From positions 16,843,001-16,907,000 of the forward strand of contig CM073325.1 of the NCBI GenBank assembly GCA_037043015.1: a stretch of DNA of 64,000 bases, read 5' to 3'. The notes under the pieces are model-generated. The model was not told the DNA's origin and did no database searches. It was given only the letters and a program-made list of their open reading frames with translations. The first letter of the stretch is position 1, and each line of letters begins with the position of its first letter. The translations under genes were made by a program, and so were the position numbers. Source of the DNA: Bryum argenteum. Taxonomy: Eukaryota > Streptophyta > Bryopsida > Bryales > Bryaceae. This document shows, piece after piece, positions 16,460 to 50,180 of this stretch.

Positions 16460-16477
16460 CGCTCGATCAATCGTTCA

Positions 16478-20690: not shown

Positions 20691-22014
20691 CTACACATGG
20701 AAAACATGATGTATTTTCATAGAATGAGGAAGTTGCAATTTAAATGCAACTGGATTGATTTTTTTAATAATAGTAAATGGCCCAATTTTTTTATAGACTA
20801 ATTTGTTCGAAAGTTGTTGAGATTGAATGTGGCGTCGAATGAGCCATACTTGGTCTCCAACTTTAAAAGGTGGTGGTTCCTTTCTTTGTTCATCTGCACT
20901 AGTCTTATAGGTTTGTTGTGCTTCATGAAGATGAAGTTTGATTTCTTGATGAATTTTGAATAATCGGGTTGCAAAATCTTTAGCTGCAGAACTTGAAGTA
21001 GAATTTTGTATATGAAAAGTATGATTTTGGATGTCGTCCATAGTTTGCAAAGAATGGTGTATACTTGGTAGAAGTATGAGTTGTATTGTTATAAGTAAAT
21101 TCTGCCAATGGCAATAGTTCTACCCAATCATCTTGATGGTAATTGACAATACATCGTAAATATTGTTCTAAAACTTGGTTTACTCTTTCAGTTTGACCAT
21201 TGGTATGTGGATGAAAAGTTGAGGATAAGTTTATTTTTACACCTAAAATTTTAAATAATTCTTGCCAGAATTTTGAAATAAACTGAGGCCCCCGATCAAA
21301 AGTAATATTATCAGGGCTACCTTGATAACGGTATATATTATTTAAAATAAGTTTGCAATTTCTTTTCCTATGATAGTCTTAGAGCATGGAGTGAAATGTG
21401 CCATTTTTGTAAAGCTATCAACAATAACAAGAATTGAATCATAAGACATAGACATTGGTAAATCCGTAATAAAATCTAATGATGCAGAAGTCCACAGTCC
21501 TGAAGGGATAGGTAAAGGTTGAAGCAAACCATGGGGTTGGTGTCGAGGACCCTTAAATCGACTACATATTTCACATGATTTAATGAATTCTTTAACTAAT
21601 TTCCACATCTGAGGCCACCAAAAATCACCGGAAATTAGCTCCATAATCTTATTAAAACCAAAAGGACCAGCTCGTGGTAAATCATGTCTTGCTTGAATTA
21701 CTTGAAGAGGAGAGACAGCGGCTGGGACATATAATATTTAGGTCTTTGAAGTATAATAGTCCATCTTTAAAGTGAAAATTATTTAGATGATCATCAGAAT
21801 CAAGTGATTTGTGATTATTAAGTTGTTGTTGAATGTCACAACCAAATGTATCTCGTGGCATAGCATCATGAATTTGTTGAATAAGTGGAGAGGTTTCTTT
21901 TTGTACAGTTGTCAACATACAAAGTTGAAGAACTTCAGGCTTGAATGTTGTTGTATTTTGTTGATCATATGACTCTTTGTCACGTTTAGGTGCAAGATAT
22001 GATCGTCTAAACAA
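20691..22014 (-). pseudogene. Chromovirus integrase
   Basis: Minus-strand fragments 22014-21682, 21644-21342 and 21050-20691 carry the integrase zinc-binding region (WWPQM, then CEICSRFKG), the start of the catalytic core (SLDFITDLP, DSFTKMAHF) and the C-terminal GDQVWL segment. Stops and frame changes separate them. The integrase would insert the cDNA copy into chromatin. Confidence 0.75.
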
Positions 22015-22106
22015 TGCATCTGGTTTTCCTTGAAGTTTCCTTGGACGATATACAATAACAAAATCAAAACGGGAAAGTGATAAACTCCAACGAGCTTGAC
22101 GACAAT

Positions 22107-23504
22107 TTAAAATCCGTCGCCCATAAAATATTCTAAATTTTTATGATCATAGTAAACTATCACACGATGTTGAGCCCCTTCAAGGAAATGACGCCATTCT
22201 TCAAAAGCAGCAACAATGGCTAGTAATTCTTTATCATAAATATTATAATTTATCTCAGCAGCAGAAAATTTACGTGAAAAATAATTTACCGGATAAAGTT
22301 TACCATCCTCTCCAATTTGCGATAAAATAGCTCCCAAGGCAAAGTCTGAAGCGTATACTTTCAAAATAAATGGTTCTGATAAGTCTGCATGTATAAGAAT
22401 TGGTGCAGTAGAAAAGGCTGTTTTTAAAGCATTGAATGCCATTTCGGCTTTAGCATTCCATACTAATTTATCTTTTTTAAGCAATTGTGTTAATGGGGCT
22501 GCAATGTCTGAAAAAGATTCAATAAATAATCGATAAAAGTTAGAAAATCCAATGAAACATTGAAGGTCATGAATTGTCTTAGGAACTTCCCATTTCAAAA
22601 TAGTTTCAACTTTGCGAGGGTCATAGTAATACCAGTCTCAAATATAATGTAACCCAAAAAATTCTATTTGATATTGATTAAACATACATTTTTCAAGTTT
22701 TGCATAAAGACCAATTTCACGAAGTTTTTGTAAAACAAGACAAACATGTTCCTTATGTTCTTTTCCATTTTTTGGAAATATTAAAATATCATCTATATAT
22801 ATATGATTACAAATTGATCCAAAAATTCTTGAAATACATTATTCATCATGTGTTGGAATACAACTGGAGCATTAGTTAACCCCTAAAGGTCTGAGCGTGC
22901 CGTGGCGACCAGTAGAATACCGTGTATTTTGACTGTATTTGGAGTGAGTGCACATCTTTAATGGGTTTGAGTTCAAAGAAGAAGTTGACATTTGAATTAA
23001 TGCGGTTCTAGTGAGCTATTACGATTCCAGTTTAGAGTGTCTTGTTGGTAGCAAATCCTAATTATACGACAACGTACATACTATCCCCAAGGGACTTTTA
23101 AGGGTTAAACCAAACGGCATAACATTACATTCAAAGTGTCCATAACGTGTTCTAAATGCAGTTTTCCATTCATCTTCTTTTTTTATTCGTACCAAATTAT
23201 AAGCACCACGAAGATCAATTTTTGTACATATCCTTGCTTTCCTCAATTGATCAATGAGACGTGAAATTAGTGGTAAAGGGTGGCGATTCTTTATAGTTAT
23301 TTTATTCAATCCACAATAATCAATACACATTCTAAGTGAACCGTCCTTCTTTTTGACGAATAAGATTGGGGCATTGGTGGGTGACTTTGAATGTTGGATA
23401 AAGTTCTTGGCTAAATTTTCATCAGTGTATTCTCGAAGCGCGGTGAGTTCAGTTTGTGATAAATTATAAATAGGCCCAAAAGGTGGTTTAGTTCCTGGTT
23501 CCAA
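22107..23504 (-). pseudogene. pol: Chromovirus reverse transcriptase and RNase H
   Basis: Read on the minus strand, 23504-23109 has the RT fingers and palm ([31 protein letters not shown]). A foreign 225-bp insertion interrupts right after VMPFGLT, and the frame resumes below 22876 (NAP-VFQ, then the region of the YxDD loop with frame breaks). The connection and RNase H-like part is at 22598-22107 (GFSNFYR, YASDFALGAILSQ, YNIYDKELLAIV, then a DHKNLEYF variant of the usual tether motif). It would copy the element's RNA to DNA, but it is broken. Confidence 0.8.
22880..23104. mobile_element. 225-bp TTAA-type (piggyBac-like) insertion in the chromovirus RT
   Basis: The RT frame is interrupted between VMPFGLT and NAP. 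The insert starts CCCCTAAAGGTC and ends GACTTTTAAGGG, so the termini match as inverted repeats at 10 of 12 bases. TTAA is present on both sides (22876-22879 and 23105-23108). Removing the insert with one TTAA restores the RT reading frame. There is no coding capacity. TTAA duplication with CCC...GGG ends fits the piggyBac superfamily. It post-dates the chromovirus. Confidence 0.7.
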
Positions 23505-23852
23505 ATCAATTGTGCAATCGTATAGACGATGCTCTGGTAATGTATCTGTTTTTTCTTTTCAGAAACATCCAAAAAAATCTTTATATTGTTCTGGAAGTTC
23601 ATTTGAAACATGACTTACTTCTTTTACTGAAGTTGTATAAATAATAAATGGTGTACTTTCTTTTGCAGCTCTTATAAATGCACTTGCTCATACAAGTAAC
23701 GGTAATTTTTTTATACTTAAAATATCTTCTATGTAGTTTTTTACATGAGTGGTTGTATCTTTGTTTCTTTTGATTTTGTGGAATAACTTGAGATTCAATC
23801 AAAGTATCATTTTCCGTTAAAAGTTAATTTTGTTGATATGAAGTGGTTCTTT

Positions 23853-24305
23853 TCAAGAAAGGTTTCTAATTTTCCAATCTATTGACGGGTTGAAGTTAGT
23901 AAGCCATGACAAACCTAAAATTATTGGACTAGGAGAGGAAGTTCCTATGACATTGAATGACACAACACATAATTTTCCTTCAACTAAAATAGAAATAGGT
24001 ATAGTTTCATGTGTTACTACTCTTGAAGCAATTAATCTGCCATCTATGACTTCTACATTTACAGTTTTTTTCTTTTTTTTCTTTTTTTTCTTTTTTTTTT
24101 CTTTTTTTTTTCTTTTTTTTAATATTAAAGGTATGGAATGTAATTTCGCAAATGTTTTATTTATAAAACTAGCAGAGGCTCCTGAATCTAACAAGGCATT
24201 CGCATGTATAACATGGTCGTTGTAATAGATGTAAGTATGTAAATTGTAAGAAGGTACCGGTGCTGAAGACAATATAGGACCAATTGTGGGTGTTGAAATA
24301 TCCAA
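23853..24305 (-). pseudogene. Chromovirus aspartic protease with poly-Lys insert
   Basis: The retropepsin active site LLDSGASASFIN is near codon 40, and the downstream flap and LGLSWL segments follow. Between them, a T/C microsatellite at 24064-24120 reads as a run of lysines on this strand. Retroviral-type proteases have no such insert, so the tract is most likely a slippage expansion after the element died. Confidence 0.7.
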
Positions 24306-24371
24306 CCGTATAGTCCCAACGAGGGTTGGAAGAGCTAGTTTTCCGAATTACGTCTTTGTTTCTTTTTACAA

Positions 24372-25288
24372 TCACGTGCCAGGTGCCCCTCTTCTCCACA
24401 ATATAAACATAGAGTGACCTTCACGTTGGCGATGATCCTTTTCATCTTGAGTTAATGTTCTATATCGTATGGAGTCAATTTGCATTAGATCATAATTATT
24501 ATTGATAGGATTTGAAGATAATGTTGATGTTATTGGAGGAGGAGAAGAGAGTGGTACTCTAATTTTTGGTCCAAGTCTTTTGTTTTGGCGTCTTTCAAAA
24601 AGTCTATTATCACATTTAATTGCTTGAGAAACTGCTTTAGCTAATGTTGAAACATCTGGCATTGTCAACAAAAGATGTTTTACATAATCGCATAAGCCCC
24701 AATAGAATTGTCGCACCAAAGTCATATCTGATTTCCAATCGACGTCGCATGACAATTGCCTAAACTCAGAGGCATATATTGAAACAGGGCGGCTGCCTCG
24801 TTGTAATTCCCTGATTTTCATGTCTGCCATCCTTGCTTTATTGTCGACATCTCCAAATGTGGTAGAAAATTCTTCCATAAATGCTTCAAAATTTTCAAGT
24901 AGAGGTGAATTTTGTTCATTAAGAGGGCCAAACCATGCAAGAGCAGTGCCTGTCAACAAAGTACCAATAAGACCAACTTTAGATATTTCAGTTGAGTACC
25001 TTTGAAGTTGCATCCTTATAAACAATTTTATTTGATTAGAGAATCCTCGAAACTTGGATCGTGTTCCATCAAATTTCTCCGGCACGCTCAATTTAGAATC
25101 CTTGATGACATGTTCTCAACTTTGGGCAATACTTGACATGTGAGGAAAGTTATGTTCTCTTGAGTCATTTGATCCATTCTTGATTTATTTGTTGCTAATG
25201 CCTCTTGCATTTCTTCAACATTTTTTTGTTGCAAGACATTGATGTGAGCAATTAGATCATTAAGACGTGCCTCATTTGAAGATTCCAT
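24372..25288 (-). pseudogene. gag: Chromovirus gag (capsid and zinc knuckle)
   Basis: The first frame (25288-25088) and the second (25091-24372) are in different frames, so gag is broken near 25090. The second contains the retrotransposon gag core (FRGFSNQIKLF, LTGTALAWFGPL, a YASEFRQL stretch). A zinc knuckle of CxxC-x4-H-x4-C form (CLYCGEEGHLARDC) can be read at about 24370-24412, but one base out of the main frame. Gag would package element RNA in cytoplasmic particles. This copy cannot make an intact protein. Confidence 0.75.
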
Positions 25289-31613: not shown

Positions 31614-31680
31614 GGGGAACGTAGAGGCGTGAGCGTAGAGCGTAGAGCGGTGAGCGGTGAGCGTAGAGCGGTGACGGGAC
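31614..31680 (+). repeat. E2 left terminal inverted repeat
   Basis: GGGGAACGTAGAGGC, then tandem 7-8-base units of GAGCGTA and GAGCGGT type up to about 31675. Partner of 58733-58793. Confidence 0.8.
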
Positions 31681-32245
31681 AATTTTGACTATTTTATAAC
31701 ATTTTTAAAAAAAAGTAAAGTACCCTATTACCACTCAAATGTGTACTGTACTATTTTAAAATGTCTATTTTTAGGGTTTAGGGTCCCTAATTCCGTGGTT
31801 TAGGGTCTTCTTTTAATGTGGGTCCCACCTCGCAAGAATATTTCATTAGTATTGTCTTGAAGATTTTATGTTAATATATTGAAAGTAGGGTTGATGTCGT
31901 CATATTGATGAACGTGTGAATTGGAGGCATGACTATTTAAAGGTTAAATTGAACATATGTATTAGGTAATTCTAAAATTCGTTGTTGGGTTTATGGTTTA
32001 GGGATAAATTAGGGCTGACGTCATCATTAAAATACAACAAAAATTCAACGAAAGCAAAGAACCCTAGAGATCTATACTACATCCTTGGATAGTTGCCTCT
32101 TATGTAACGTGCTGCTCACACGAGCCCCGCAAGGAATACTGCGCATGTTCAAAACTGTACTGATAAAGGAAAAAATATAAATGGCAAAGGATTATATAAT
32201 TCAAATTTCAGTAATAGAAACTATCTCATTGTTTAATCTAATGTA

Positions 32246-32648: not shown

Positions 32649-35600
32649 CTACGATGAAGGTGAAGCACCATTAAAATGATGGTCACACTGATCTGTCTCT
32701 AGGTCAATGTACCTAAGCACACCAGCTCTAAAGCGTCGGCGTGAAAAATTCGGTACAGGAGGAGTTGGAGCCGCGACGAAAGCCCGAGCCACATGCTCCC
32801 CATAAGAGGGTAGAAGAAGTGTGGGCGGTGGGCTATTGATGAGATCAGCGTTTCGGGTCAAGTGTCTTGAGATGCCTGCATATCTAAATAATCATAACTA
32901 GTCAATGCTCTGAATGTAGTACGGACTTTGAAATCACAAAAAGTCATTGAATTGAATTGAGTACACACCAATATAAGTGCAAGGCTTCTTCAGATACGGT
33001 TCATCGGAGTCGTAATCGTCACCAGAGGCTGATTCCCTACTTTCTTCTTCCAACGGTTTAGGGTGTTTGAAGGTGGCCAAGAGCCCATCAAAAATCTCGT
33101 CATCTGCCTCAAAAGCAATGAGGTGACGATTGGAGCGTGCACATGCGATGATTGAAGCATCTGCACATTTTGAAATCCACATGAGTAATGAGAATATGAA
33201 TTTGCAATCTGCTTGTAAATGGAAACTTAAATTTTTACCTGTACTAGCGCTAAAGTCAAACACGATTCCCCCATCGTCCGTGAGGCAATCCACGAAGCAC
33301 TACAAAAACGACGGATCCTTCTCACGTGCGCCGGGCCACGGCTTCCCGTTAGTGCGGTAGGTAATGGAACTCGCGTCAGCAAAGTTACTGACCATATCAT
33401 CCTCGTCAGGTATGATCGCGACTCCTGCGTATGCTTGCGCCACTTGTCGTATATTCAACATCTTCATGAAGTCCTTACGAGCATAGACCTTGATGATAAA
33501 GTTATGGGTCTGCAATAAGCAATTCGAAATAAGAAAACGTAATGTTGAAATGAGAGATTAAATCAAGTGCAATATTTGAAGTTTACCTCTCTTGCGTTAG
33601 CGCCAGGTCTAACCAAAGGAAGGGGGTTATATGCCCACGACTCTCGCACAAGCCGGAAATTGTAAGTACTAGCACGATCGTGTAGGATGCGGTCAATTTT
33701 GACGTCCTTGGGGTGCATAATAAGGATAGTCCCAAGGTCCGTCAAATGGTATGAGGCAAAGACAAACACGGACTCGAAGTAATACGAAGCACGCTTGTTC
33801 CGAGAGAAACGCATCCGCGAGACATTAAGCACGGGCAAGTTCTCGGGAACATCTGCAAAGATAAGGTCAATCCCGGGATGTTTGGGCATGTACTCCATCT
33901 TTTCGCAAGGGTAGTCCCTACCCTTTCCAATCTGTGAATTAGACACAAAGTAATCAGAAACCAATAAACAGGATAGAGTAACTTCAGTACAAAAACGATT
34001 CATAGTTAGAGAGGGATTTACCTTCTTGATGTGTTGAACCATAGCCAGAATAGCATCAACCCAGCCAGCACCCTTTGTAGACTGCTCAACCAAGGCCGCT
34101 GTGTCTCCTTTCTCAAGGAACATAGGGAGCGTCACCGTTATAGGAGAAGAGGAACTACTACCCACATTTTTGGGAAAAACTATGGGACGCATGGGTCCAT
34201 TAGATTGCGTCGGTCCATGTGACAGAGGAGACTCACGAGGGGCTGACGACGAAGGAGGAGTAGATCTCACATTCGAAACCCCACCTCGTAGGCTTGTATC
34301 CACCCTCGACCATGCCTTTCAGGCAGAACTGCCTGCCTATCCGAGGCAACAGGACCTCTTACACCACACCCAGCGTTGTTGACAACCGTCCCCTGCGAAG
34401 CTTGTGTCATTTCAACCTCCCTTTGAACTGCAATGCATACAAAAGCGCACATGTTACATAAATAACAAAGTACAACTAGAGTAACATACATACATTTCAA
34501 TCTACAACACCTGCAAGCTCATCGAGAATGGGAACATCTCCATGCCCTCCCTCGTCGTCTTCGTCATTGTCTTCGTGCTCTTCCACCTCCTCTTCTTGTT
34601 CTTCCTCTTCTGGCTCAGGGGTAGGCTCATTTCTGCGACGTTTCCGGCTGCCACCTGCAGATACCTCTATCTTTTGGTGCAATGAGGGGGTGGTGGTGGA
34701 GCGCTGGAAGCATATAGAAGTCGTCGTCATCATCATCAACTTGTAGTGCTACAGGAGCAGCGTCGACCGATTCCGCTATCTGTACAAGATGCTTCTCTTC
34801 GTTGTGAACATGGTGGGTTTGAGACTCTAGAAACCAACCACCAGTCAACAGTAAAGCCATCTTGAACCGTTGCCTCTGATCATTCGAAAAAATCGACCTC
34901 GGTTTCTTCTTCAAGCAAGGGATTTGGAATTCAGACGGAATGCCCACTGGAGCGAGACCACCCTTAGCAACGAGCTCGTGTTTGAGATACCTACAAAGAG
35001 TAAAAACAATTAGAAACACTTTTCTGAATATAATATTCAGAAAATTGACAATACAGAACGGCGTGGTCAAACCTGAACATCAATCGCTTCTTAGTTTGAG
35101 CACCTCCGCCAATCTTGTCGATGTGGAAGCCTTTAATGAACTTAGGGCTGGCTTTGGGCCCCAAATAAGCATCGAATGCCTTATCCCATAAAAAGAAGAC
35201 GCCATTTTTCGACGTACTCTTCTTCGCATCAAAATGGCGTCAATGTTCGGGATGTGGGGATTCTCTTGTTTGAAGAACTTGTCCACCTCTTCCTTCAGAT
35301 ACGTCGCTAACTGTGGACAACAAGTGAAGTTAGTAAAAATCAGGAAAAATGGGTATGGTCATATCGGTGTAACGAATGTGATTGAGTGCATATGTAGTAC
35401 CTGAGACCACAAGGCAGCACGGGCAAGCCATGCCTCCAACACCCTGTCTTTCATCTCGACCGGGTCCGGAAAGCGAACACTCCGTCGGAATGCCGGAGTG
35501 TTGTTCCACCAACGAAGCCACATGGTTTTCACTTCCTTCGAAACGTTGGTGGTGGCGACCTTCTGGAGGCGCTCCAGAGACATCTCGGGATCCTTTTGAC

Positions 35601-37460
35601 GACTATAATGAAGATTGATCTACATCAAATTACAAGAAAGAGATTAAGAAATATAACAGAGGGATGTGGAGAACGAAATTGAGAGATAGAAGTAAGATAG
35701 GTCGAGTGAATTCATACCTCTTGCTCAAAAGCTTTTCCTAACTCAGGATTAGCAATGGCAAGCATTTTGTCGAAATCTTTCTGTCGGATTCGTTTAACCT
35801 CAGCTTTGAGAGCATCGTCCATGGCCGTCCAAACTCCTTGCGCAGTCCTCTCGTCGACGGGAGTGTCCTCGTAGTATTGGGCTTGGGCTTCGTCGGCGAC
35901 TTTAGCACATTGCCTCTGGACAATCAAAGAACTCATGTTGGATAAAGTAAAAAACTCAATTTAAAACGAATTCATACAAAAGATATGCAAAATGACCCAC
36001 CGCATAGAGGAACTTTATGAAGACGTCTTTAGTAACGAAGTACCAAGTCTGCCTCAGCTTATCTTTTGCGGTGTAACAGTACTTCCAGTCCTCAGCAGAG
36101 ATGAGGGGTTTCCATTCTTCTAGTGGCATCTTGCCAAACTTGCGCATGCGTTGCAACCTCGATGGCAGGCTATCTTCAACATGATCATGCTCTGTGGACC
36201 TGTTGATGAGGTTAGTACAAAATATATGTAAATTGTGTAAAAAATACTACAGCCAAGGAAAAATAATACAAAATCGAACTCACCAGTTGATATCATTCAT
36301 CGCGTCGATAAGTACTTTGTATTCTGCACGTCCGTCAAGGAAAATGCAGTCGACAAAGAAATACCAATCAGGGTCATCTCTGCGCATTTGCTCAACCGCA
36401 TCCAAGCAGTAACGCGATGATTCCCCTCGTAGACGTAGAAGTATTTGCCACTGAATTGGCAAAGGTCCGGTCCAACTTGCAAACATCTGTTTCAATGATA
36501 GGACGTACCTTGGGGTAACACGAGAGGCGACAGAGGGGAATTCGAAGTCGAGATTTTTCAACTGGTTTGATACGCAATCTGGATATAGTGTTGATTGAGT
36601 TTCCCTTTTGTTGAGCGCGTAAATCTCGTCGGCGCTCCACATAGGATCCATCTCCGCCAAAATGACTTGGCATTTCAACAACCCCAACCTCCAAAGTATC
36701 CGGGAGAGAAGGAGATTCCCTCGCAGATCTTGCGATTGGAGACGCACTACTACAGTAAATGTGTTCATCTCGTCAATCGCATCAATGTCGTGCAAACATC
36801 TGTGTACCCGAACAATCTCTTGAATGTCATCGTCATCGTCTTCGGCAATTGGAGATTGAGATGTGAGTTGGCGGCTTGGGGAGATAGTCAGTGGCAAACA
36901 TGACTGCTGTTCCGCGTCACAACCGTCAGTTGTTGCCATGTTGGTGGGATCGGTCTCAGATGACAGCGGGGCAATCGAGAGAGGGGTCTGCGCAAGAGTA
37001 CCAAAGATACTTAGTAATCAATTATGAAAACTCAAATAGAAATAGAGAAGCGGATAAATTATAAATGAAGACAACATGAACTTTGGTCTTTACGTCTCAT
37101 GGTAATGTAAGATGTCGAGCTAAAATTAAAGTAGACTGTTCAAATTTAGCTAGACTAGGTCGCAATCCTCTTAGAACGTCGTGGGCAAAGTCTGGCTTGA
37201 GCTTGAGCTTCCAAGCGCAGTTGCCTACGACGCGCCCTCCAGCACTTCATGTAAGTAGCTCGTTGATCTTCAACAACAGTCACAGGAGCAGTCAATGTTG
37301 ATTGAACGTAGTCGGTGTTAGTATCTATAGTAGCAGCTGGAAGTGCTCGAACCACCGTGCGTTTAACCTCTACATCTAAGACTCTAGTTCGCGTGCAAGA
37401 CGTAGCACTATCGCTCTCGATTCCACGAAAGAGAACTCCGGCTCGATGTCAATCGACTCC
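32649..37460 (-). pseudogene. E2 ParB-like/methyltransferase gene, multi-exon, damaged
   Basis: About a dozen exons, by comparison with the E1 and E3 copies. In order: a basic exon ending PRRSKRIAT (37355-37155); a ParB-like domain (36700-36280) with IPLCRLSCYPKVRPI and YVYEGNHRVTAWM; helical and acidic linkers (36156-34497, with a KRRRNE basic patch); then a methyltransferase-like domain (34200-33000). The latter has DLIFADVPENLPV where beta-class amino-methyltransferases have DPPY (33853-33839), then a strand-like HLTDLGTILIMHP. After an intron comes VFDFSASTDASIIACARS and RHLIAFEAD, matching the S-adenosylmethionine motif FxGSG-T and the GIE-D acidic end. The motif order is beta-class. Damage: a deletion of about 190 bp in the ParB-like part and an in-frame TAG at about 33301. 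The role would be DNA binding or modification for the element, which is inferred. Confidence 0.65.
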
Positions 37461-37741
37461 TACAAAAGCAAACACAACAAAAATTCAGAGCGTTAGTATA
37501 TTCACAAGGAGATGAGAGAAAAGAGATTAATGTTAATATTGAAATGATAAGAGGTGTAGATATGAATCACCTAATATTCTCCTACTTTCGGATACAAACG
37601 CTATACGTGCATATATATTTATCTTCCACATATTAACCAGAGAGAGGATAAGGTAGTTAGGGTCAATGTCCCTGCGAATTCTGACTACACATTCGAACAA
37701 GGATCCACGAGCAGAATCCATGCCTGCAGATCACTTTCATT

Positions 37742-38570
37742 TCAATCAGATGGCAAGGAAGTTTCGTTGACGAAACTGCTCCAGGTGACCTGCTTCACGA
37801 GCCCGCTACTACACAGCGCTCCCTAAAAGTCTACAAAGCTGCGAATTGCGACATGCATTCATACCGTCCATCCCAGCCACCTTCTTGAGGGCTCCGAGCA
37901 AGGTACATTCGTTGACGAAGGTGCTCGAGGTGAGATGGTTCAAGAGGCCGTTACAACATGCAGACAGCGCTCGCTGAGAGTACGAGAATGCGAATTCGGC
38001 AAAGGAAATACAACACTCTCCCAGCCAGCTTCTAATAGGTTCCGAGCCAGGGAGTTTCGTTGACGAAAGTGCTCATCATGAGCCGGTTCACTAAGCAGGA
38101 AGCTCACGAGACAGCGCCCGCTCAGAGTCTACGAATTCGGCATGCATTCAAACGAGAGAATCCAACCAACATCTACAAGTCTCCAAGCAGATCTTGCACA
38201 CCCTACTCACAATTACCGAACGTGGTTTCCTCGAACATATTCTAAGCACACCGATCACAAGGATTAGGATTGCAGAGCAAGGTAGTTTCGTTGACGAAAC
38301 TGCTCCAGGTGACCTGCTTCGCGAGGCCGCTACTACACAACGCTCCCAAAAAGTCTACGAGGCTGCGAATTGCGTCATACATTCATACCGTCCATCCCAG
38401 CCACCTTCTTGAGGGCACCGAGCAAGGTACATTCGTTGACGAAGGTGCTCGAGGTGAGATGGTTCAAGAGGCCGTTACAACATGCAGACAGCGCTCGCTG
38501 AGAGTATGAAAATGCAAATTCAGCGGAGGAAAAACAAAACTCTCCCAGCCAGTTTCTAATAGGCTCCGAG
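37742..38570 (+). repeat. Satellite array with TTCGTTGACGAA palindromes, left part
   Basis: Units of about 144, 150 and 230 bp alternate, each with the quasi-palindrome TTCGTTGACGAA (extended form GTTTCGTTGACGAAAC at 37761-37776 and 38285-38300). The array is cut by E1 at 38570 and continues at 48472. The spacing between the last palindrome here and the first after E1 is normal once E1 is removed. Confidence 0.9.
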
Positions 38571-38619
38571 GGACGTTGCTACCGTGTGAGCGTTGAGCGG
38601 TGAGCGGTGAGCGGTAAGG
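38571..38619 (+). repeat. E1 left terminal inverted repeat (transposase end)
   Basis: GGACGTTGCTACCGT, then GTGAGCGTTGAGCGG and tandem TGAGCGG units. It pairs with 48395-48461. Confidence 0.9.
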
Positions 38620-39037
38620 TTTTGAATTTTTAGTGGGGAGTTTGTATTTTAGCAAAAATATTTCTAAAAATAGTTTTTTCAAAAAAATTTGAGAATAATT
38701 TTCGAATATTCTCAAGAATATTTGAATATTCTAGACTTATAACCGTGGATTTAGTGACCCAAACCCGTGGAAATAAGGCTGAAATTCCCTGAATTTTGTG
38801 AGACTTGAGCGGCAAAACTCGACAGCAAATCACAAATTTTTAAATGTTAAGAGGTTTCTAAGGTAATATTTCTAAGTGAGTAGTACTTTGAGTTAGACAA
38901 ATTGGCAAGGTTTGCTGTACATGTATGTAATGGTATAATAAGTTTTAGTAAGATTTGAAAAAATATCACATGTAGTGTGGAGCACCCAATCGTAATAGTA
39001 ACATATAGCGTACGTAGATGAGGAGATATAAGGCATT

Positions 39038-40366
39038 CTAATCTGTAGCATGGTCTAGGATTCCTCCCTCCAGAATCTTCTTCACCTCATTGAAACTAAG
39101 AGTGGCCGCGTGGATGAAGAGGTCTGCATCCGGATCAAATTTGCAAACCAATACCGTGATGTAGTATAGGTGCTTGCAAGGTCGGTATGGATCTCTCCGT
39201 CCTAACGAAGAGATTGTTTTCTTGAACACTGGGCATGAGCAATCCGGGAATTTACTAATTGATAGTCTATAAACTGCATCCGAATCCGACTCCAAGTCTA
39301 CGATACACCCAAAACCTGGCTGCGGGATCATGGTTACCTTCAAAATTTTGGCCCGCATTGAGGTGGCAGACTCAATATTCTTCATGTGCTTTGAAGTCAT
39401 CGCTGCAATGCGTTTCATGTTCTTCGATCTTCTTGACCTCGGGAACACGTCCGGCTTCTCCGGGACAAGAATATGGGACAAGTTTCTTGGTGGGGCAGCA
39501 TTATTGAAAGTACGGTTCGTAGGAAGCTGTTCTTTTTGTGGTAGTCGAAAGCCCGCATTCTCCAACGCCTCCATTTCATCTCGTGTGAGGTTAGTCCCTA
39601 TCTTAACAGGCCATATTGAAGGAATAGGGGGTCTATCCTCGCTTTGAGAGAATGGCTCAATCCACTTGCGACGATGACCCTTCACACACCTGTCAACATC
39701 ATCCGGAAAGAGACGTTGTGAGTACGAATGGAATGGAAATCTATTTTTTTGAGGATAGTTTTGTTGCGAGACATACTACCAAGTCTACGAAGAGAGGAAA
39801 GAATGTTTTTGGTTTTTACGACTTTGGACGCGGGAAGAGGAACGGGGGTGGTTCTGCGACTGCGTTCAGAACCAGACGAGGGTGGATGCAGATTCGATGA
39901 TAGTCGACGGGACTGCATGGACGCTTTTCTTTCATCGTCGGATGAATCAGAAATATCGATTCGGACTTCGAGTCCGGGTTCGACCTTGACACGAGCAAGA
40001 ACTGGAACAACTGTGGAGATGGTAGAAGAACTACGAGGAGTGAGGAGGACGGTGGAGGCGTTCATGACAGATTCTGTCATGCCGAACAGTCGATACTGTC
40101 CGGGCTGTAGCTTATATATTCTACAATTACTGTCTAGGTCGACTGGTTCGACAAGCACAGAGTACTGGACAAGATTAGTGTTTGGATCCATGACATGTTT
40201 CTCTAACCAAAGAGATGACTCATCAAAACCGAAACGAATTGCTAGCCAAGACGGAGTGACTTCAGCCACTCCGTCCACCCCCGGAGGAATGCAGATGGGA
40301 GGACTTAAGTCTTCGACCTAATGGCAATGACGTCCGCGCGGGAGGTAAGGGAGTAGAGGATGCCAT
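39038..40366 (-). pseudogene. E1 transposase, internally deleted (N-terminus plus SWIM end)
   Basis: The start at 40366 is chosen because MASS is shared with the E2 copy at 54503. The N-terminal part (40278-39682) has DGVAEVTPSWLAIRFGFD and a Ser/Asp-rich DISDSSDDERK stretch. It then jumps, with a frame change near 39710, straight to the segment PDDVDRCVKG and on to the C-terminal frame 39685-39038. That frame ends in a SWIM zinc finger: C-S-C, 18 residues, then CKH. The zinc-binding and DDE catalytic regions present in the E2 copy are missing, so this protein could not cut DNA. SWIM fingers occur at the C-terminus of many MULE transposases and bind DNA. E1 therefore probably moved with transposase supplied in trans. 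Confidence 0.8.
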
Positions 40367-40912
40367 GATAGACGTAGGGGAAGAAGACAACATCAACAAG
40401 TGTGCGGAGAAAGAGAGTCTCAAAGCGTTTCGGATGTTCAAATATGAGACATTGGTGTACGGTGTTTGCGTACGTATTGAATACATATCAAACGTTATTT
40501 CTTATAATAAAAAGTCCAGATATCGGATACTCTTAATCGTGAGCATGATGATTTTAAAGCACTTTACTTAAAATACTTAAATAATATGAATCGAAAAACG
40601 CATTAAGTACAAACGATTAAAAATATTGGATTCCACGATTAAAAAGTATGGGTAGACGGTAAAGTGGCGGCGCGATCATTGTCGAGGGTTTAGTTGGATA
40701 ATAGATGCGGTCGGAAGTTAGCTTATTTTGAATTGTCGACACCATGATGATGGGGGAATTAGGGAATACGCGTTGGCTGATTAGGGTATCGTAGCCGCAT
40801 GGAGCAACTTATATAATGGAGTTGAGAATTAGGGTTCGACAACTTCATATGCATAGAGAAGTTTTGGACTCGGTATGTGAGACGAGTGATAAGTTATCTC
40901 ATTGCAGGCAAC
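40367..40912. promoter_or_regulatory. E1 bidirectional intergenic region
   Basis: The transposase start (40366, minus) and the small-gene start (40913, plus) are divergent across about 550 bp. The E2 copy has the same layout (53889 and 54503), so one shared promoter region is plausible. No specific binding site is identified. Confidence 0.45.
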
Positions 40913-41648
40913 ATGGATGAAATCGCTAGCGGTAGTGATAGAGGAAAGGAAATAGGTCGAGAAAAGAAGAAGCGGAGGGGTGGTACGAAGTTCACTAACT
41001 CTAAAGCACAGAGGCGTAGTGCTATGCGGAAGCGTGATGAAAGAAGCTCAAGCGGCGATGATCGGGAGCCAGACGGGTACGATTTACTGATCGACGATGA
41101 TGTGCTACCGCCATTCAGGCGGACTATCAAGATGCGCTCGCTCAACCTCGACAGTGTTCCAGAGAGTGTGGGGACGGACGAAGGTGAAGAAGAGGAGGAC
41201 GATGGGCGTAGCGTGCGATTCAAGACGCCTCATCGATACTCTTTGCGTGGATGGGCATGACGATGGAGGTGTGGAATCTACGCATGAGGTACTAAAGTTT
41301 TCTATGATACAATTATGTAAATATTTGTAAAGGTCAACATATTCCTAAATACATATATGGATTAATTACAAAATGGGTTGTCTTCAGGATCGTGTAGGAT
41401 TGGAAGAGGTAGACGATGGATCAGGAGATGAAGTAGCATCTTTTGAAGAGAAGAGAGTCACTCAAATCGGTGAGGGAGCTGAAGCCACTTGTCAGCAGGG
41501 GACACAGTATGAGGTAGCGGATGGTTTTGAGACAAGCGTCGAAGAAGTAGAGGAGGTACATGATAAACCTTACTTCTTGGTTTACTGGGAGGACGTAGGG
41601 CTGGTTAAGTATACAGTCAACGAGAGTTCTTTCTTCAGTATGACGTAG
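40913..41648 (+). CDS. E1 small protein gene, basic start and acidic middle (2 exons?)
   Basis: The Met at 40913 opens a 115-codon frame with the nuclear-localisation-like cluster KKKRRGGTKF, then RSAMRKRDERSSSGDD and an acidic EEEEDD run. A GT donor at 41287 and an AG acceptor just before 41391 would join it to a second exon (to 41648) with PYFLVYWEDVGLVKYTVNES. That junction needs a frame change near 41200, so the gene may be damaged. The E2 homologue (53082-53889) keeps the KKKRRGG-KF motif and a PEFMIYEHPNGFIQCWL counterpart, which argues for real coding sequence. No family is recognised. It might instead be the first exons of the methyltransferase gene downstream. Confidence 0.55.
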
Positions 41649-41974
41649 TTCCGAATTTTGACATGATATAGATACTTGATATATAAGGACATAGGACTGA
41701 GTAATATATGTCGTAGACTGCAAATAATACGTAACAAGCGTAATTCAAATTCACATAACTTGCGTATTCAAATGTATGAGAGATGGATGCAAATATTAGG
41801 ACTTTCTGGAAAAATATTAACGAGTGTCATGATCTCTTGGTGTCATACATTTTATTCATATTTATATTAAGTGTACAACCTAAGTGCGGTAATAAAAAAT
41901 ACAGTACATTGTGTTTATGAATTCATTGGAGACATAGTGTTGTACTAGAAAATTTAACAGTAGGTATTGTCCCA

Positions 41975-42072
41975 AGGTTATCCGCCCCATGTCCGTCCCC
42001 ATCGTATCCGCCCGATGTCCGTCTTGATGGTATACGCCCGATGTCCGTCTTGGTGGTATCCGCCCATTGACC
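41975..42072 (+). repeat. 26-bp minisatellite in E1
   Basis: About three and a half copies of a 26-bp unit containing ATGTCCGTC and GTATCCGCCC. Confidence 0.7.
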
Positions 42073-42580
42073 ATCCACGCAAGGCTGGGGGAGGCTAGCT
42101 CGTTTGTGATTTTCGTTATTGTTTTTTGGCACTTTTGTGAAGTTTGTGCAGCACCTTTGACGGGGGGGGGTTGGTCGTTTTGGCTGAAGAGCCCCCGTGT
42201 TGTTCTTCTCGGGCAAAGTCAAGCCCTGTTGTTGAGATTGGTTGATGGAATTCGAGCCCCCGGGGCAGCAGCTGTTGGCACGATGGCACGCCCAGTACCA
42301 CGTCTCAGTAGAGCTGGCTTGACTTCGAGCCTCTCGGGATGCAGCATGTGGAACCAAGGCTGAGCCCTTGAATCCTCTCAGTTATGCTTGCTCGGACTTG
42401 AGCCCCCGGGGGAAGCAGATGTTGGCACGAAGGGGCCCTGCTGTGAGCTTGCTTGGTCCTGGTGATGGCTTTTGCGGGGAAGTGGAGCCCTGCCTGCCAG
42501 CCTCTCGTCCACGCAAGGCTGGGGGAGGCTACCTCGTTTGTGATTTTCAATCTTTCAACATTTTCTTTTACTTGATTGAA
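42073..42580 (+). repeat. GC-rich repeated block inside E1
   Basis: The word CCACGCAAGGCTGGGGGAGG at about 42076 recurs at about 42510, with similar flanks (CTCGTTTGTGATTTTC). Between them are two related segments with GAGCCCCCGGGG and TGTTGGCACGA. The base composition is unlike the rest of E1. It lies where E2 has its satellite, between the small gene and the first methyltransferase exon. Confidence 0.6.
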
Positions 42581-42837
42581 AGTTAGTGAATTTCGGCTAA
42601 GTTGAGGCCTGATCTTGGTTTTCTTTGTGGAAGTAGTGCTTTGTTTTTTGTTTTTGGGGTTGAAGTGGAGCGTTGTTCTTGGTTTGCTTGGGTCAAGTGT
42701 AGCCATCATTTAATTTTTCTAGTTTGAAATTTCATACTCATTGTTCCATTACATATGACTATTTGGTATATGAAAGTTAATGTTCAATATTGGTGTTCGC
42801 TTACTGGGAAATTACTTACCTTTGATTTTTTGAGGTT

Positions 42838-45800
42838 TTGCAGGATCCGTTGAAGCGACAGAAAGTTCATCGTGAGGAGGATTCTGATGCTGAGAGCGAT
42901 TTGTCAACTTTGAGAGATCATGTCATGGCTGTAGTAGAGTCTCGTCGTTTAATGATACCTTTGTCTTCTGTACCCGAAACTCCTCCTCCGGCCTCCCCTG
43001 TCCGTCTCACTTCACGTGTTGACGTTGATCGGGTTGCACGAGCGGTTAACATGCAAATTAACCAAAATGAGGCCAAAGCTAGATGTACTCACGCAAATGC
43101 ATTAGCAAGAGTTACCCCAAGACGCTCTCCCCGTCTTGCCGCAAAATTGCGCTCAACTCAATTGTATTGTCTGATGATTTGATGACTTTATCATGAACTT
43201 AATTATAAAGTCGTTGTGTTTCTTATATCTTATCGCTTTGTTAACTTCACACATTCTTATTTTTTTGCGTGTTGTGTTGTACTTGGTTTCTATAATGCCA
43301 GATGAACATAGCTCAAGTCCATACCGATGAAGATGACAATACCACCCCGCCTCTTCTTCCTTCCTCACGACCTCTCTCTCGTGCGTTAGAGATGAACACG
43401 ATCGTGAATCTCTCCCAAATGATGGTAACCTTTGCAGTGGAGTCCCGGAAGATTGTCCTTCCGAAATTCACCGTCATCCTCAAGCGTTGCAAGAACATGA
43501 TGGACTGGACACTATTTCCGAAGATGAAGACACTCCGTTGCCTGGGAGTGTCAATGTTGGAATCGTCCATATGCCAACTCATCTTCAAGACAAAGATCCC
43601 GATTGGAGTGCAAATGAAATGAGAATGATTCACAAAAGTGACTCCATTGCGATCATTAACAGGTTTCGATTCAAACCTGTTAAAAAGTCTCGCATGCTAA
43701 TTCCTTTGTGTCGTCTCGTATGCTATCCTAAGGTTCGTCCTATTTCGAACAAGACGTGAGGAAGTTGGAGAATGAGTTCAACAAAGGCTATCGGGAGGGC
43801 GATCGGGTGATGTACGTTTCTCCCTTCGATAGGAAAGGGAGAGAGAAGGCTGATTCTTGTGAAGATGCAAAGTGTGGACAAATCCTCCGTGAAAGCTACA
43901 AATGAAGAGTTCGAGACGACGATCTTTGAGTCCTCGATCCGATCTTCAACACCAGAGTGGCAAGTATTATTATGTGTACGAAGGTAACCACCGTGTTACC
44001 GCTTGGATGCGTCATATTGAAAGGTACCACAAGATGGATCCTTCTTGGTACATCTCAGTTGACTGCATCGTTCTCGATGCTCGTGGAGAGAGCAATCTCC
44101 TCCTAGACGCCATGAACGACATAAATTGGTAAGTACTTGTCACATTCATTCTAATTATGTTCTTGTATATTCAACTATGATATATCTGATATCTGATATC
44201 GATGTGTAGGTCTACGGAACATGACCATGTTGAAGACGGTCTACGTGCAAAATTGCAACGCATGAGAAAATTTGGAAAATTGAAACTTGAGGACTTCAAG
44301 GACCTTATCTCCCCGGAGGATTACAGAATTTGCAAGAACGCCAAAGCAAAAAAAGAAACTTGGTATCCGGTTACACTTGACGTTTTCGTCAAATTCTTGT
44401 ATCGGTAGGTTTATGTTTATGTGCTATATCGTTATAATTTGCTTTCGATTTTTGCACCTTTTAACTACGTTATAAATTATTTACGAGGAGGTTAGCGAAA
44501 GCATCCGACGAGGTCAAGCATCTTACTACGCCACTGTTCGAAGGATAAACAAACAGGGCCGGGAGTTTGGAGTGCCATGGACAACGCCATCAAATCGTAA
44601 ATTAAGTCCATTCGTGGCAAAATTTCGACAAAATGGTCATTGCCGCCAACAACAAACTTGGGAAAGTATTCCCAAAAGAGGTATTTTTCGCATTCTACTC
44701 AAATTCAATATAAGCCTAATCGTCTTTTTGACCTTTATCACATTCAAACTTTGTCAATCTCCTTCATGCGCAGATATACTCTCATTACAAAGAATAACCA
44801 CAAACCGGATATGACAATTGATCGTTTGCAAATGGTAGCCACCACGAACGCACACTTCGATTATAAGGAAAGTGGCTGCAATGGTGGAACTCATCCTCCG
44901 AAGCTCGTCGATCTGTTCACTTTCCAGAGGACCGCCAATGAAAGATAAATCATTGCTTGCTTTCCTCCATCGCGCATCACTTTGGGCACGGTAACTTAAA
45001 TGTATTTTCCGTGTTTTCTATTTTATCGGCTTTACAATATTTTAATTTCTAACGAAAATTCTTCTTTTCCACTAGAGCAATCCCTTTCAACCGAATTACG
45101 AAACTAGCGGAAGATGACAATCTCAACATTCAATGGAATGATTCCGTCTTAAAACCATCCGAGTACGTTGAGAAGTGGAGGTTGCTTTTATGGGAGAAGG
45201 CATTTGGGAACTACCTTTCTCTTAATGCTAGCCCAAGGTTCATTAAAGGCTCCGATCTTCAAAGGATTGGTGGTGGCAAAGTTACAATAAAACGTCTTTT
45301 ATTCCGGTATGTATATCTATTATGTTTTCAATGTAACATAATTTTTGTTTATCATTCAATTACATCATTCTAATTTCTTCCTTGAATGTAGGTACTTGAA
45401 ACAAGAGCTTCTTGCGAAAGGAGCACTAGCTTCTTGGTCCATTCCCGTCGAGTTCGATGACGTCTCAGTCGCCAACGATCCCTCCACCTTCTTCTCCAGT
45501 GACCAACAGAGGCGGTTTACCACAACACAATTACTGACTGATGGTTGGTTCCTTGAGTGCCAGGATAACTTCGTTCATAAGGAGGAGAAGCATCTTATTC
45601 GAAACCTCGGTACAAGCGCTGCTGGCACCGCACCTATGGAGATAGACAACGATGACGACGACGAGGACCTCTCCATTTTGCCAGCCGCACCTGCCCTTCT
45701 CTCTTCACCTCCTTCTGCTCAACCGCTCAAACGTCGGGCCAACAAAAAACGACGCAACGTCGTAGCGGAGCTGTAGTAGATCTTCAAGAAGAATCCGAGA

Positions 45801-47563
45801 AATTCCTCCCTACAAATACATCCAAGGTCCGAAGAAGCTAATTTGACTCGGGCATCGATGGTGCGACCAACAATGCACGTAGACGCGGTCGACAATTGAC
45901 TCGACTTTTCGCATGCGCTCTTACAAATGCAGGTCTCCTCCTCAATCTGTCGCGGCCCGATCACAACTCCGGAAAGAAGTTCGCTTCACTCCCATTTCTT
46001 GAACCGAAGCATGTTCTTTGAGTGTTTGTCGTCTGAGATTACAATTTCTCTTCCAATGTACTTGGAAAAAGGGGACATCGGAGCTTCGCTCAAAAGGCGC
46101 TCTCATGAAACCAAGGATTGGGACACACAAGTCATGGACATCATCAACCACATCGAAAGGTATTGTGTCTTAATTCTTTTCTTACATTTTTTATTTCTTA
46201 AATTTTGATGGGAACAGATCGCTTACAACATGTGTCATTTTCTCGATTTCCAAAGATTGGAAAAGACAGAAGTACCCATGCAAGGAGATGGGTACGAAAC
46301 ACCCCCATCCCGGCATTGATCTCCTCTACGCAGACGTTCCCGAGAACTTACCCGTACCTGACGTGTCGCCCGCCGAAATCCCGTCATGGAACAAGCGTGA
46401 GAAAAGCTACTTCGAGAGTGTGTTCTTTTTTGCTTTCTACAACTTGACAGACGAGGGTGCGATACTTGTTATGCATCCCAACTACCGTCCGAGTCGAAAA
46501 GCTCGATGCCGAGTCGAAGGCTTTCGATTTCGAATGGTGCGAGATTGGTGGGGATATAATCCCATGCCAATGGCCTCAACAAACCCACACGTGAAAAACG
46601 GTATGGTCTTTATTATTCTCGCATTAAAATCATCGTCTATGATTATTTACAACGTTTCTTTAAATCTCTCATCTATTGAATTTTGCGTACACACAACTTC
46701 CACATTAAAGTTTTTGTTCGGAAGTCATTTGCCACGAGATTCTCCATAAGACAAGTTGCGAAAGAGTACGCAGGTGTGCCTATTCTTCCCGACGAGGAAG
46801 ACCATGTTTTCAATTTTGCGAGCAATGACTCCATTTCGTAAGAAGGAAGATGGTACTCCGTGGCGTGGCTCGCGAGAGAAGGATCCCTCCTTCATCCAAA
46901 GTGTTTTATAGATTCTCTCACATTTGAGAGGGAATCGTCTTTGACTGAGCCCTAGTATCAAGTTAGTTGTTGCTAATACCAACTCTCATTCAATTTATTC
47001 ATTACTGTAGTTCTGATGTTGGTTGCTGGTATGTAGGTGCTTCCGTGATTGCCTGCGCGCGATCAAACCGTCATCTCATTGCTGTTGAAGCTGATGAAGA
47101 GATATTTGACGGACTTTTATCGGCATACGTCGATGGTACCGCTTTTGAGGAAGAAAGCGGTGATTCCGGTCCAGTATATGACTACGACAGTGACACATCC
47201 GAACCGCTTTTGAAGAAGCAACGCCCAACATTTTGTGCGTACTTATCTCTTTACTTTCCTCCCCTTCTATTGTCACCTTCAATTGGTTGAAATTTATTGG
47301 TATTGACTTTTCTGTACTTTTAGGATCGCAGGTTCGAACCGACGTTTGATTGGCAACGGAAGTCTCTACAGCAGTCCTCCGCAAACTTTCACCCTTCCAT
47401 CTTATGCGGAGCGGATAGCTCAAGAATTTGTGGTCGCCTTTCTCCCGCCTTATCGGACAAGAGTAGACGCCAACGCTTTAGCTCAAGAGTGCTTGCGTTT
47501 ATAGACGATGAGGCCGATCGGTGTGACCAACACTTTAGTGGTCGCTCACCATCGCCTTCCTAG
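42838..47563 (+). pseudogene. E1 ParB-like/methyltransferase gene, multi-exon, damaged
   Basis: The first recognisable exon follows an AG acceptor at 42843 and ends with PRRSPRLAAK. The ParB-like region is at 43560-44130 (IPLCRLVCYPKVRPI and YVYEGNHRVTAWM, in different frames). The linker exons cover about 44200-45775, with DDDDEDL acid runs and a KRRANKKRR basic patch. The methyltransferase part has YADVPENLPV at about 46330-46350, LTDEGAILVMHP, and after an intron ASVIACARS with RHLIAVEAD at about 47040-47095. The stop is at 47561. Damage: frame breaks in the ParB-like part near 43760-43940, and near 46890-46950 frameshifts plus a TGA destroy the S-adenosylmethionine-motif exon. The unusual DVPE in place of DPPY is shared with E2, so it predates the decay and is a family trait. 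Confidence 0.65.
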
Positions 47564-47841
47564 GTGATTTTATTTTCTTAGTTTTGGTTTGGACCATGTA
47601 GGGTCATATATTTATAGTTGACCTACGGCATTGGTCATACGTGTGGTTTTGCTATACCTTTTTTTATATATATATATGACGTTTACCTATTACTTATCAA
47701 CGTTTTACAGTTTCTTAATTCATGTAAATGTTAAACTTTTAAACTCGATGCCAACTAAAAGTTTCTAAACATTTCTTTATTTCCAGTTTGAATTTTTTGA
47801 AACTTGCCAATGATGGTAGGGGTTCTAGTCTAGTATTTGTA

Positions 47842-47925
47842 TAGCTCAGGATAGCTGCAGCACGACGCAATGCAACGCTCAAACGAGGCCGAGGAGAATC
47901 GAACTCGGACCACTACAATGCCACG
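47842..47925 (-). repeat. tRNA-derived (SINE-like) segment in E1
   Basis: Read on the minus strand, it has the box-B-like GAGTTCGATTC and the downstream CTCGTTTGAGC that also follow in the E2 copy at 32246-32352. It has the same position and relative orientation in both elements. Confidence 0.5.
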
Positions 47926-48394
47926 TGAAATCATGAATGTCTTTCTGTTCACCTTTCAAGGAGACATGGAAGGACGACCCGTAATTATAATTTTCAGATT
48001 ATATAAACTGAATCATCTACATATAATTCTAACATGTGAAAGAGGAAATTGATGACGTCAGCCCTAATTAGTCTCTAAATCCTAAAACAATAAATAAAAC
48101 TTATTGATTACCGAAATGGCTATCTCAACTTTTGGTTTATATTTTGTATTTGATTTAAATTGAATTGGTTACACATGATGATGCGAGCCCATAATTTAAT
48201 TGACTTTCATTTAAATTTGCAAATGTGGATTAATTACGTAATATTGTAGGACCCCATTACCATATATCGAAATGGATACAGTACCCTATGTCCACGGTTT
48301 TGGGTACTTTTATGCCTAAAAATAACCATTTCAAAATTTTAAAACCACCTATTCCATGGTAATAGGGCCATTAACTTTTAAAATTTTTATTTCT

Positions 48395-48461
48395 TACCGC
48401 TCGAACTTTACCGCTCACCGCTCACCGCTCACCGCTCAACGCTCACACCCGTGGTTTCCCC
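48395..48461 (-). repeat. E1 right terminal inverted repeat (methyltransferase end)
   Basis: Read inward: GGGGAAACCACGGGT, GTGAGCGTTGAGCGG, then four tandem TGAGCGG-type units. Confidence 0.9.
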
Positions 48462-48471
48462 AGGCTCCGAG

Positions 48472-50180
48472 CCAGGGAGTTTCGTTGACGAAAGTGCTCA
48501 TCCTGAGCCGGTTCACAAGGCAGGAAGCTCAGAGACAGCGCCCGCCCAGAGTCTACGAATTCGGCATGCATTCATACGAGAGGGTCCAGCCAACATCTAC
48601 AAGTCTCCAAGCAGATCTTGCACACCCTAGTCACAATTACAGAACGTGGTTTCCACGAACATATTCTAAGCACACCGATCACAAGGATTAGGATTGCAGA
48701 GCAAGGTAGTTTCGTTGACGAAACTGCTCGAGGTGACCTGCTTCGCGAGGCCGCTACTACACGCGCTCCCTAAAAGTCTACGAGGTCAAGAATTGCGACG
48801 TACATTCATACCGTCCATCCCACCACCTTCTTGAGGGCTCCGAGGCAAGGTACATTCGTTGACGAAGGTGCTCGAGGTGAGATGGTTCAAGAGGCCGTTA
48901 CAACATGCGAGACAAATCACGAGAGTATGAAAATGCAAATTCAGCGGAGGAAAAACAAAACTCTCCCAGCCAGTTTCTAATAGGCTCCGAGCCAGGGAGT
49001 TTCGTTGACGAAAGTGCTCATCATGAGCCGGTTCACAAGGCAGGAAGCTCAGAGACAGCGCCCGCCCAGAGTCTACGAATTCGGCATGCATTCATACGAG
49101 AGGGTCCAGCCAACATCTACAAGTCTCCAAGCAGATCTTGCACACCCTAGTCACAATTACAGAACGTGGTTTCCACGAACATATTCTAAGCACACCGATC
49201 ACAAGGATTAGGATTGCAGAGCAAGGTAGTTTCGTTGACGAAACTGCTCGAGGTGACCTGCTTCGCGAGGCCGCTACTACACAGCGCTCCCTAAAAGTCT
49301 ACGAGGCTGCGAATTGCGACGTACATTCATACCGTCCATCCCAGCCACCTTCTTGAGGGCTCCGAGCAAGGTACATTCGTTGACGAAGGTGCTCGAGGTG
49401 AGATGGTTCAAGAGGCCGTTACAACATGCAGACAGCGCTCGCTGAGAGTATGAAAATGCAAATTCAGCGGAGGAAAAACAAAACTCTCCCAGCCAGTTTC
49501 TAATAGGCTCCGAGCCAGGGAGTTTCGTTGACGAAAGTGCTCATCATGAGCCGGTTCACAAGGCAGGAAGCTCAGAGACAGCGCCCGCCCAGAGTCTACG
49601 AATTCGGCATGCATTCATACGAGAGGGTCCAGCCAACATCTACAAGTCTCCAAGCAGATCTTGCACACCCTAGTCACAATTACAGAACGTGGTTTCCACG
49701 AACATATTCTAAGCACACCGATCACAAGGATTAGAATTGCGGAGCAAGGTAGTTTCGTTGACGAAATCGCTCCAGTGACTGCCATGAGGCCGCTACTACA
49801 CAGCGCTCCCTAAAAGTCTACGAGGCTGCGAATTGCGACGTACATTCATACCGTCCATCTCAGCCACTTTAATAAGGGCACCGAGCAAGGTACATTCGTT
49901 GACGAAGGTGCTCGAGGTGAGATGGTTCAAGAGGCCGTTACAACATGCAGAGAGCGCTCGCTGAGAGTACGAGAATGCGAATTCGGCAATGGAAATACAA
50001 AACTCTCCCAGCCTGCTTCTAATAGGTTCCGAGCCAGAGAGTTTCGTTGACGAGAGTGCTCATCATGAGCCGGTTCACAAGGCAAGAAGCTCACTAGAAA
50101 AAGCCCGCTCAAAGTCTACGAATTCGGCATGCATTCGAACGAGAGGATCCAGCCAACATCTACAGGGTTCAGACTAGATG
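48472..50180 (+). repeat. Satellite array with TTCGTTGACGAA palindromes, main part
   Basis: A higher-order unit of about 520 bp is repeated more than three times. Each unit has three subunits (about 230, 150 and 144 bp) marked by variants of the palindrome: AGTTTCGTTGACGAAACT, CATTCGTTGACGAAGG and GTTTCGTTGACGAAAG. The first form is at 48709, 49229 and 49752, so the period is 520-523 bp. Copies are nearly identical, which indicates recent homogenisation. Long reading frames here (with a repeated FVDE) are by-products of the repeat. Confidence 0.92.

Follow-up and report, generated by a model that had tools for sequence, protein, structure and literature searches.

A transposon accessory gene of the moss Bryum argenteum with a ParB-like region, a methyltransferase fold and a changed catalytic motif

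Accessory proteins that pair a ParB-like domain with a methyltransferase are already known from transposons. Sola1-1_Ec32 of the brown alga Ectocarpus encodes a 1104-residue protein of this kind, with a ParB-like and an N4/N6 methyltransferase domain, on the strand opposite to the transposase (PMC12477816), and for algal transposons the same account cites Iyer 2011 and the Bostrychia genome (2025). The bacterial protein Bce_0392 likewise fuses a ParB-like domain to an adenine methylase (PMC5512222). A different accessory protein, VANC of the Arabidopsis VANDAL elements, binds short motifs in non-coding tandem arrays of its own element and causes the loss of DNA methylation; the motif varies along with the protein between related elements (PMC5735166). 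Here we describe a window of 64,000 nucleotides of the Bryum argenteum genome (contig C5, positions 16843001-16907000; the assembly searched comprises 258.8 Mb in 25 contigs), which contains three copies (E1, E2 and E3) of a gene for a ParB-like protein with a methyltransferase fold, carried by large DNA transposons. The structure of the elements, the fold, a changed motif IV across subfamilies, purifying selection and upstream tandem palindrome arrays with a shared core are established.

The moss gene resembles that of Sola1-1_Ec32 in being a transposon accessory gene, in its size, in its domain pair and in its transcription opposite to the transposase. Unlike the Ectocarpus protein, which belongs to a Sola1 transposon and for which methylation is predicted, it is combined with other transposon features, a DxPE motif and palindrome arrays, and the two are likened by description (PMC12477816). 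With VANC and VANDAL it shares, as an analogy only, an accessory protein and arrays of short sites within the same DNA transposon, the sites varying by subfamily; the VANC21 motif YAGTATTAY differs from the palindrome found here, and the likeness is one of layout, not of protein relatedness (PMC5735166). The joining of a ParB-like part to a methylase is also that of the bacterial Bce_0392 type (PMC5512222), but no close relative of the moss gene was found in the viral and prokaryote contigs searched, nor among phages with the ParB-like part.

The exon layout was modelled on a better-preserved copy (L034; contig C1, 7949801-7957800), which has ten GT-AG introns, each 77-97 bases long, and whose frameshift in exon 2 was left unmended; the product predicted from this layout has approximately 1,150 residues. 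In the exon search, E1 (32652-36745, minus strand) matches all eleven exons, with frameshifts in several and one stop in exon 9. The degraded E2 (43541-47554, plus strand) matches ten exons (1-6 and 8-11), several of them with frame shifts, and exon 7 was not found by tblastn. E3 (58794-59899, minus strand), which has one stop in exon 1, consists of exons 1 and 2 and the beginning of exon 3; another element starts there, so the methyltransferase part is absent.

The C-terminal part of the protein has a beta-class amino-methyltransferase fold of the Rossmann type, as the preliminary description of this DNA had proposed: motif IV, in exon 8, precedes motif X and the start of motif I, in exon 9, and the rest of motif I, in exon 10. 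E1 carries the complete series on the minus strand, with ADVPENLPV in exon 8 (33587-33931; DVPE begins at 33853), motif X and the first half of motif I (FDFSAST) in exon 9 (33240-33509), and ASIIACARS followed by RHLIAFEAD in exon 10 (32970-33158; ASIIACARSNRHLIAFEAD). The same succession of ADVPENLPV and an S-adenosylmethionine (SAM)-type motif had been claimed for E2. Its exon 8 (46261-46566, plus strand) does contain ADVPENLPV, with DVPE at 46333, and ASVIACARS and RHLIAVEAD are present, but FSAST is not: exon 9 is interrupted at that position, where other copies of the subfamily read FDWSPST. In four rows of one alignment (A4), motif I takes the form D(F/W), two variable positions and STG. 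Against this assignment speak the template modelling (TM) scores of the methyltransferase model, which range from 0.23 to 0.58 among the Foldseek rows listed, and the poor modelling of exon 10; matches of this part to phage methyltransferases are weak (expectation values, E, of 0.01-0.04 among 20 listed).

Motif IV reads D[VAIL]PE in 81 of the 98 genomic exon-8 copies fetched (37/50 in subfamily A, 22/22 in B and 22/26 in C; seven loci, the duplicates L001, L035, L033 and L034 as well as L041-L043, are omitted from this set), and the other 17 deviate at one or more of its four positions. Fifteen of 23 relatives from an environmental protein collection cover the motif, with DVPE in four, DAPE and DLPE in two each, DIPE in one, and NVPE, YAPE, DALE, DAPD, DAPS and DTPS once each. 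DPPY, whose absence had been noted for the window, occurs in none of the 98 copies and none of the 15 relatives, and the same is true of the wider catalytic pattern (D/N/S)PP(Y/F/W). Loss of DPPY by decay of the window copies alone was rejected, since the 98 genomic copies likewise lack it. CcrM, M.RsrI, M.PvuII and the bdelloid N4CMT are of the same beta-class fold but keep an active motif IV, in contrast to the DxPE and altered motif I found here. METTL14, with its motif IV EPPL, and other inactive partners also maintain the fold with an altered motif IV; unlike for METTL14, a catalytic partner was not identified.

By identity, the copies form three subfamilies, A (including E1 and E3), B and C (including E2). 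Exon 8 of E1 yielded 888 candidates in the host genome, and since all 150 that were scored have E <= 1.8e-38, its recurrence is beyond chance; exon 8 of E2 yielded 928 candidates, of which 150 were scored. In copies chosen for good preservation, the ratio of replacement to synonymous substitution rates (dN/dS) is 0.15 over 269 codons for a pair of A copies, and divergence between subfamilies amounts to 0.70-0.83 per synonymous site and 0.19-0.27 per replacement site. Judged from these sequence comparisons, the protein is maintained by purifying selection with the changed motif IV already in place. Contig C1 makes up 44.1 of the 258.8 Mb, and far more than that share of the listed exon-8 copies lies on it (31 of 55 for A, 47 of 95 for B); it may represent a sex chromosome or some other part of the genome that is silenced. 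Among the subfamily-C copies L035-L040, 15 pairwise alignments of at least 1.5 kb show 10-73 gap openings against 29-90 mismatches, and some broken frames in this subfamily may be assembly errors.

The elements of this family are large DNA transposons, have inverted ends and are Mutator-like by some features. E2 is part of a subfamily-C element with both ends (38571-48461, plus strand; 9,891 bp), flanked on both sides by AGGCTCCGAG as a direct, perfect 10-bp duplication. The middle of its transposase gene is missing, so that only a SWIM-like and an N-terminal part flank the lost core (39041-40278, minus strand), and a small second open reading frame (40913-41257, plus strand) has a relative at 53639-53880 (minus strand). 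A longer relative of E2 (contig C4, 6539684-6554831; 15,148 bp) is also bounded by a perfect 10-bp duplication, ACAACGCTGT, and shows transposase pieces on one strand, followed on the other by the small reading frame, the tandem array and the gene. These duplications bear out the transposon context that had been suggested. E1, the array on either side of E2, the small reading frame and a set of transposase pieces probably represent one subfamily-A element split by the insertion of E2 (31614-58793, minus strand, running from a 5' end at 58793 to a 3' end at 31614; about 17.3 kb once E2 is subtracted), because they have the same order and orientation as the longer relative; no target duplication common to the two ends was seen. 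E3 ends where this element begins, at 58793. A reading of E1 as a copy truncated on its 5' side was rejected, as the array resumes beyond E2 and the transposase half comes next in the correct order. The transposase pieces (54704-58385, plus strand) lie opposite to E1 and are DDE-like by eye, with D, D with CxxHW, and E pieces and a SWIM-like C-terminus. The 3' end of the E1 element (31614-31681, plus strand) reads GGGGAACGTAGAGG, followed by 7-bp GTGAGCG/GTAGAGCG repeats, and repeats of one or the other kind were found at the ends of A, B and C copies. Target duplications of Mutator-like elements (MULEs) measure 8-11 bp, and the 10 bp seen at E2 and its longer relative lie within this range. 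A Pfam search of the transposase pieces, which gave no MULE match, argues against this affiliation; Pfam SWIM matched them weakly and below the cut-off (E 0.91 and 0.65).

In each subfamily a tandem array lies upstream of the gene. That of the split A element comprises a first part at 37704-38570, with core palindromes at 37762, 38055 and 38286, and a second at 48462-51300, with core palindromes from 48480 to 50614; the array upstream of E3 (60900-63106; all three on the minus strand) contains CTTCGTCAACGAAG at 61018, 61471, 61820 and 62967. The repeated units include AGTTTCGTTGACGAAACT in A arrays, GCTTCGTCAACGAAGC in that of E3 and CAGCCTTGCGTCCACGCAAGGCTG in B, and those of C contain imperfect forms such as CAGCCTCTCGTCCACGCAAGGCTG, found in E2's array at 42498-42521 (plus strand), and CCTTTCGTCCACGCAAGG. 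Exact matches of the core YTKCGTNNACGMAR number 15 in the window, compared with 0.06 on average in shuffles. Fourteen lie in arrays, and the remaining one, at 56888, belongs to a lone palindrome, TTTCGTCAACGAAA (56888-56901), outside the arrays and between transposase coding pieces. The core also occurs in L031 (seven times), L032 (three), L033 (six), L034 (one), L036 (one) and L041 (three), but is absent from the other 101 loci, a set that includes many short exon pieces. Exact palindromes number 59 for A and 149 for B genome-wide, and the reversed patterns none. Within a reach of 16 kb, 33 of the A sites (13 of 22 clusters) are upstream and three downstream of a listed A gene, and no A site is close to a listed B gene; among the first 100 of the 149 B sites, to which the positions are confined, 49 are upstream of a listed B gene and none has a listed A gene nearby. 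Chance alone would give a share of 0.3-0.6%. The 16-kb reach was picked after the positions were seen; listed genes are the 150 per genome search, and sites without one may have another gene nearby. Closeness of sites to genes is expected because the arrays belong to the elements, and the telling point is that subfamilies this far diverged have kept the same symmetric core. The palindromes also resemble the bacterial parS sequence (GTTTC....GAAAC), though this may be chance.

The alternative that we rate highest, although still as unlikely, is that the arrays are ordinary internal repeats of the elements without a protein partner. Tandem arrays are common in transposons, other parts of the array units are also repeated, and palindromes within tandem repeats multiply through array growth alone. 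In the C arrays perfect palindromes are no more frequent than in shuffles (1 against 2.3, 0 against 0.6), the B sites upstream of B genes fall in only 6 of 26 clusters, and the core pattern was derived from the same arrays, whose counts are thus no independent test. All of this detracts from a role of the palindromes, which are candidate sites whose binding and function we infer from sequence. On the other hand, a CGTnnACG core with symmetric arms is common to three subfamilies whose synonymous sites are near saturation. Six of the seven arrays from A and B also contain more palindromes with a 2-base spacer than any of 20 shuffles (in L031, 15 against a shuffle mean of 1.9), whereas gene and transposase control sequences do not; in the E3 array the count ties with the largest shuffle.

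We tentatively favour the reading that this accessory transposon gene encodes a cis-acting DNA-binding protein, in which a ParB-like N-terminal domain is followed by a long middle region and a beta-class fold with a mostly DxPE motif IV. The protein is predicted to bind the palindromes of its own element in cis, and once bound would spread over or mark the element, acting there on chromatin or against silencing. The methyltransferase domain might serve as a DNA-binding or as a SAM-binding or SAM-sensing module, and not as a standard N6-adenine or N4-cytosine methylase, in keeping with the earlier suggestion that the protein may bind but not methylate. A more far-reaching form of this proposal, which we regard as rather doubtful, is a transposon-borne eukaryotic counterpart of ParB-parS, in which a ParB-like protein with a rebuilt methyltransferase would load at its own palindromes, coevolving by subfamily, spread from them and prevent silencing.

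Alternatively, the protein could be an active DNA methyltransferase with unusual motifs that methylates its own element to mark or protect it, for example by N6-methyladenine or N4-methylcytosine at the arrays. This appears improbable, because nearly all copies have another residue, mostly E, in place of the aromatic one of (D/N/S)PP(Y/F/W) and V, A, I, L or T at the second position of motif IV, and because the first G of the motif I GxG is changed in the alignment with a phage enzyme; the residues replaced are needed for catalysis. Yet preserved copies retain D and P at the first and third positions of motif IV, one motif I glycine and the acidic residue that follows RHLIA, selection on the gene is strong, and the Ectocarpus protein was suggested to bind and modify its own transposon (PMC12477816). 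Little credence is also given to a transposition helper that bends DNA or holds the element ends or the array in synapsis and has no epigenetic role, for which the 7-bp repeat arrays at the element ends, the palindrome arrays inside and the retention of the gene in E2, where the transposase core is missing, can be cited.

The preferred reading further depends on the identity of exon 1. EGNHRVTAW, reported earlier for all three copies, was located at 36428 in E1 (minus strand, within 36396-36482), at 43980 in E2 (plus strand) and at 59371 in E3 (minus strand). For exon 1, 121 relatives were found at E <= 1, 120 of them listed; 80 of the 120 fetched contain the arginine box E[GA]N[HR][RKC]..AW and 40 do not have that pattern. 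In an alignment of 85 rows, P86, C88, F111 and H180 do not vary, while G178, N179 and R181 are conserved in at least 90%. The ParB-like partition protein phrog_1033 is matched by 18 of these 85 members at E <= 1 (best 0.0021), and its match spans GNHR in the five whose range was shown. Given the GNHR motif and the phrog_1033 matches, exon 1 is likely, though not proved, to be a ParB/Srx (sulfiredoxin) domain. Other comparisons tell against it: Pfam ParB_N has no match in the genome or in the 85 members, no ParB model is among the NCBIfam matches of this part, and hhalign gave no match to P1 ParB or YbdM, each used as a single sequence. The structure model of exon 1 was set aside because its quality is too poor (predicted local distance difference test, pLDDT, of 38); its listed structure rows include neither a ParB nor a sulfiredoxin chain, which at this quality excludes nothing. 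The ParB-like label of the preliminary description thus stands on the motif and phrog_1033, finds no backing in Pfam or hhalign, and gains nothing from the model. That the label is wrong and the GNHR motif of exon 1 belongs to a DNA-binding domain unrelated to ParB would agree with these negative searches, but we rate it low in view of the phrog_1033 matches, of a predicted strand/helix order (low confidence) that fits ParB, and of the annotation of the similar-sized brown-algal transposon protein as ParB-like plus methyltransferase (PMC12477816).

None of the 7,999 candidates scored for the whole gene in the protein collection reached E <= 1, in contrast to the exon-wise alignments, which recovered the 23 environmental and 121 exon-1 relatives. 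Several environmental relatives look eukaryotic because they read through introns at the same positions. The only organism-named one among the listed exon-1 relatives (P0044) is the hypothetical protein KC19_VG030900 of Ceratodon purpureus, on a 110.5-Mb contig that is presumably the V sex chromosome. Searches of PDB sequences gave no true match, and a single glycoside hydrolase (E 0.19) was dismissed as spurious. The proposal that a bacterial or phage enzyme was captured and then changed stays conjectural: no relative with DPPY was found, so the motif may have changed in either direction.

Elsewhere in the window, a 535-residue open frame with protein-kinase motifs (1761-3368), two overlapping, phospholipase C-like open frames (15219-16474, minus strand) and pieces of a Ty3-type retrotransposon (21682-25115) were recognised by eye, and an Rfam scan of the window gave no matches.

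In the literature searched, no paper pairing 'Mutator-like' with 'ParB' was found, and the plant and motif terms looked for do not occur in PMC12695648. As far as these searches reach, the DxPE motif under selection, the moss host and the palindrome arrays are new, within a kind of accessory protein that is already known. Transposons with epigenetic tools of their own illuminate the contest between host and parasite over silencing. If the proposed function is true, the moss elements would be a second, testable example of the strategy used by VANC, here with components of bacterial type, and their palindromes offer a direct target for a binding assay.

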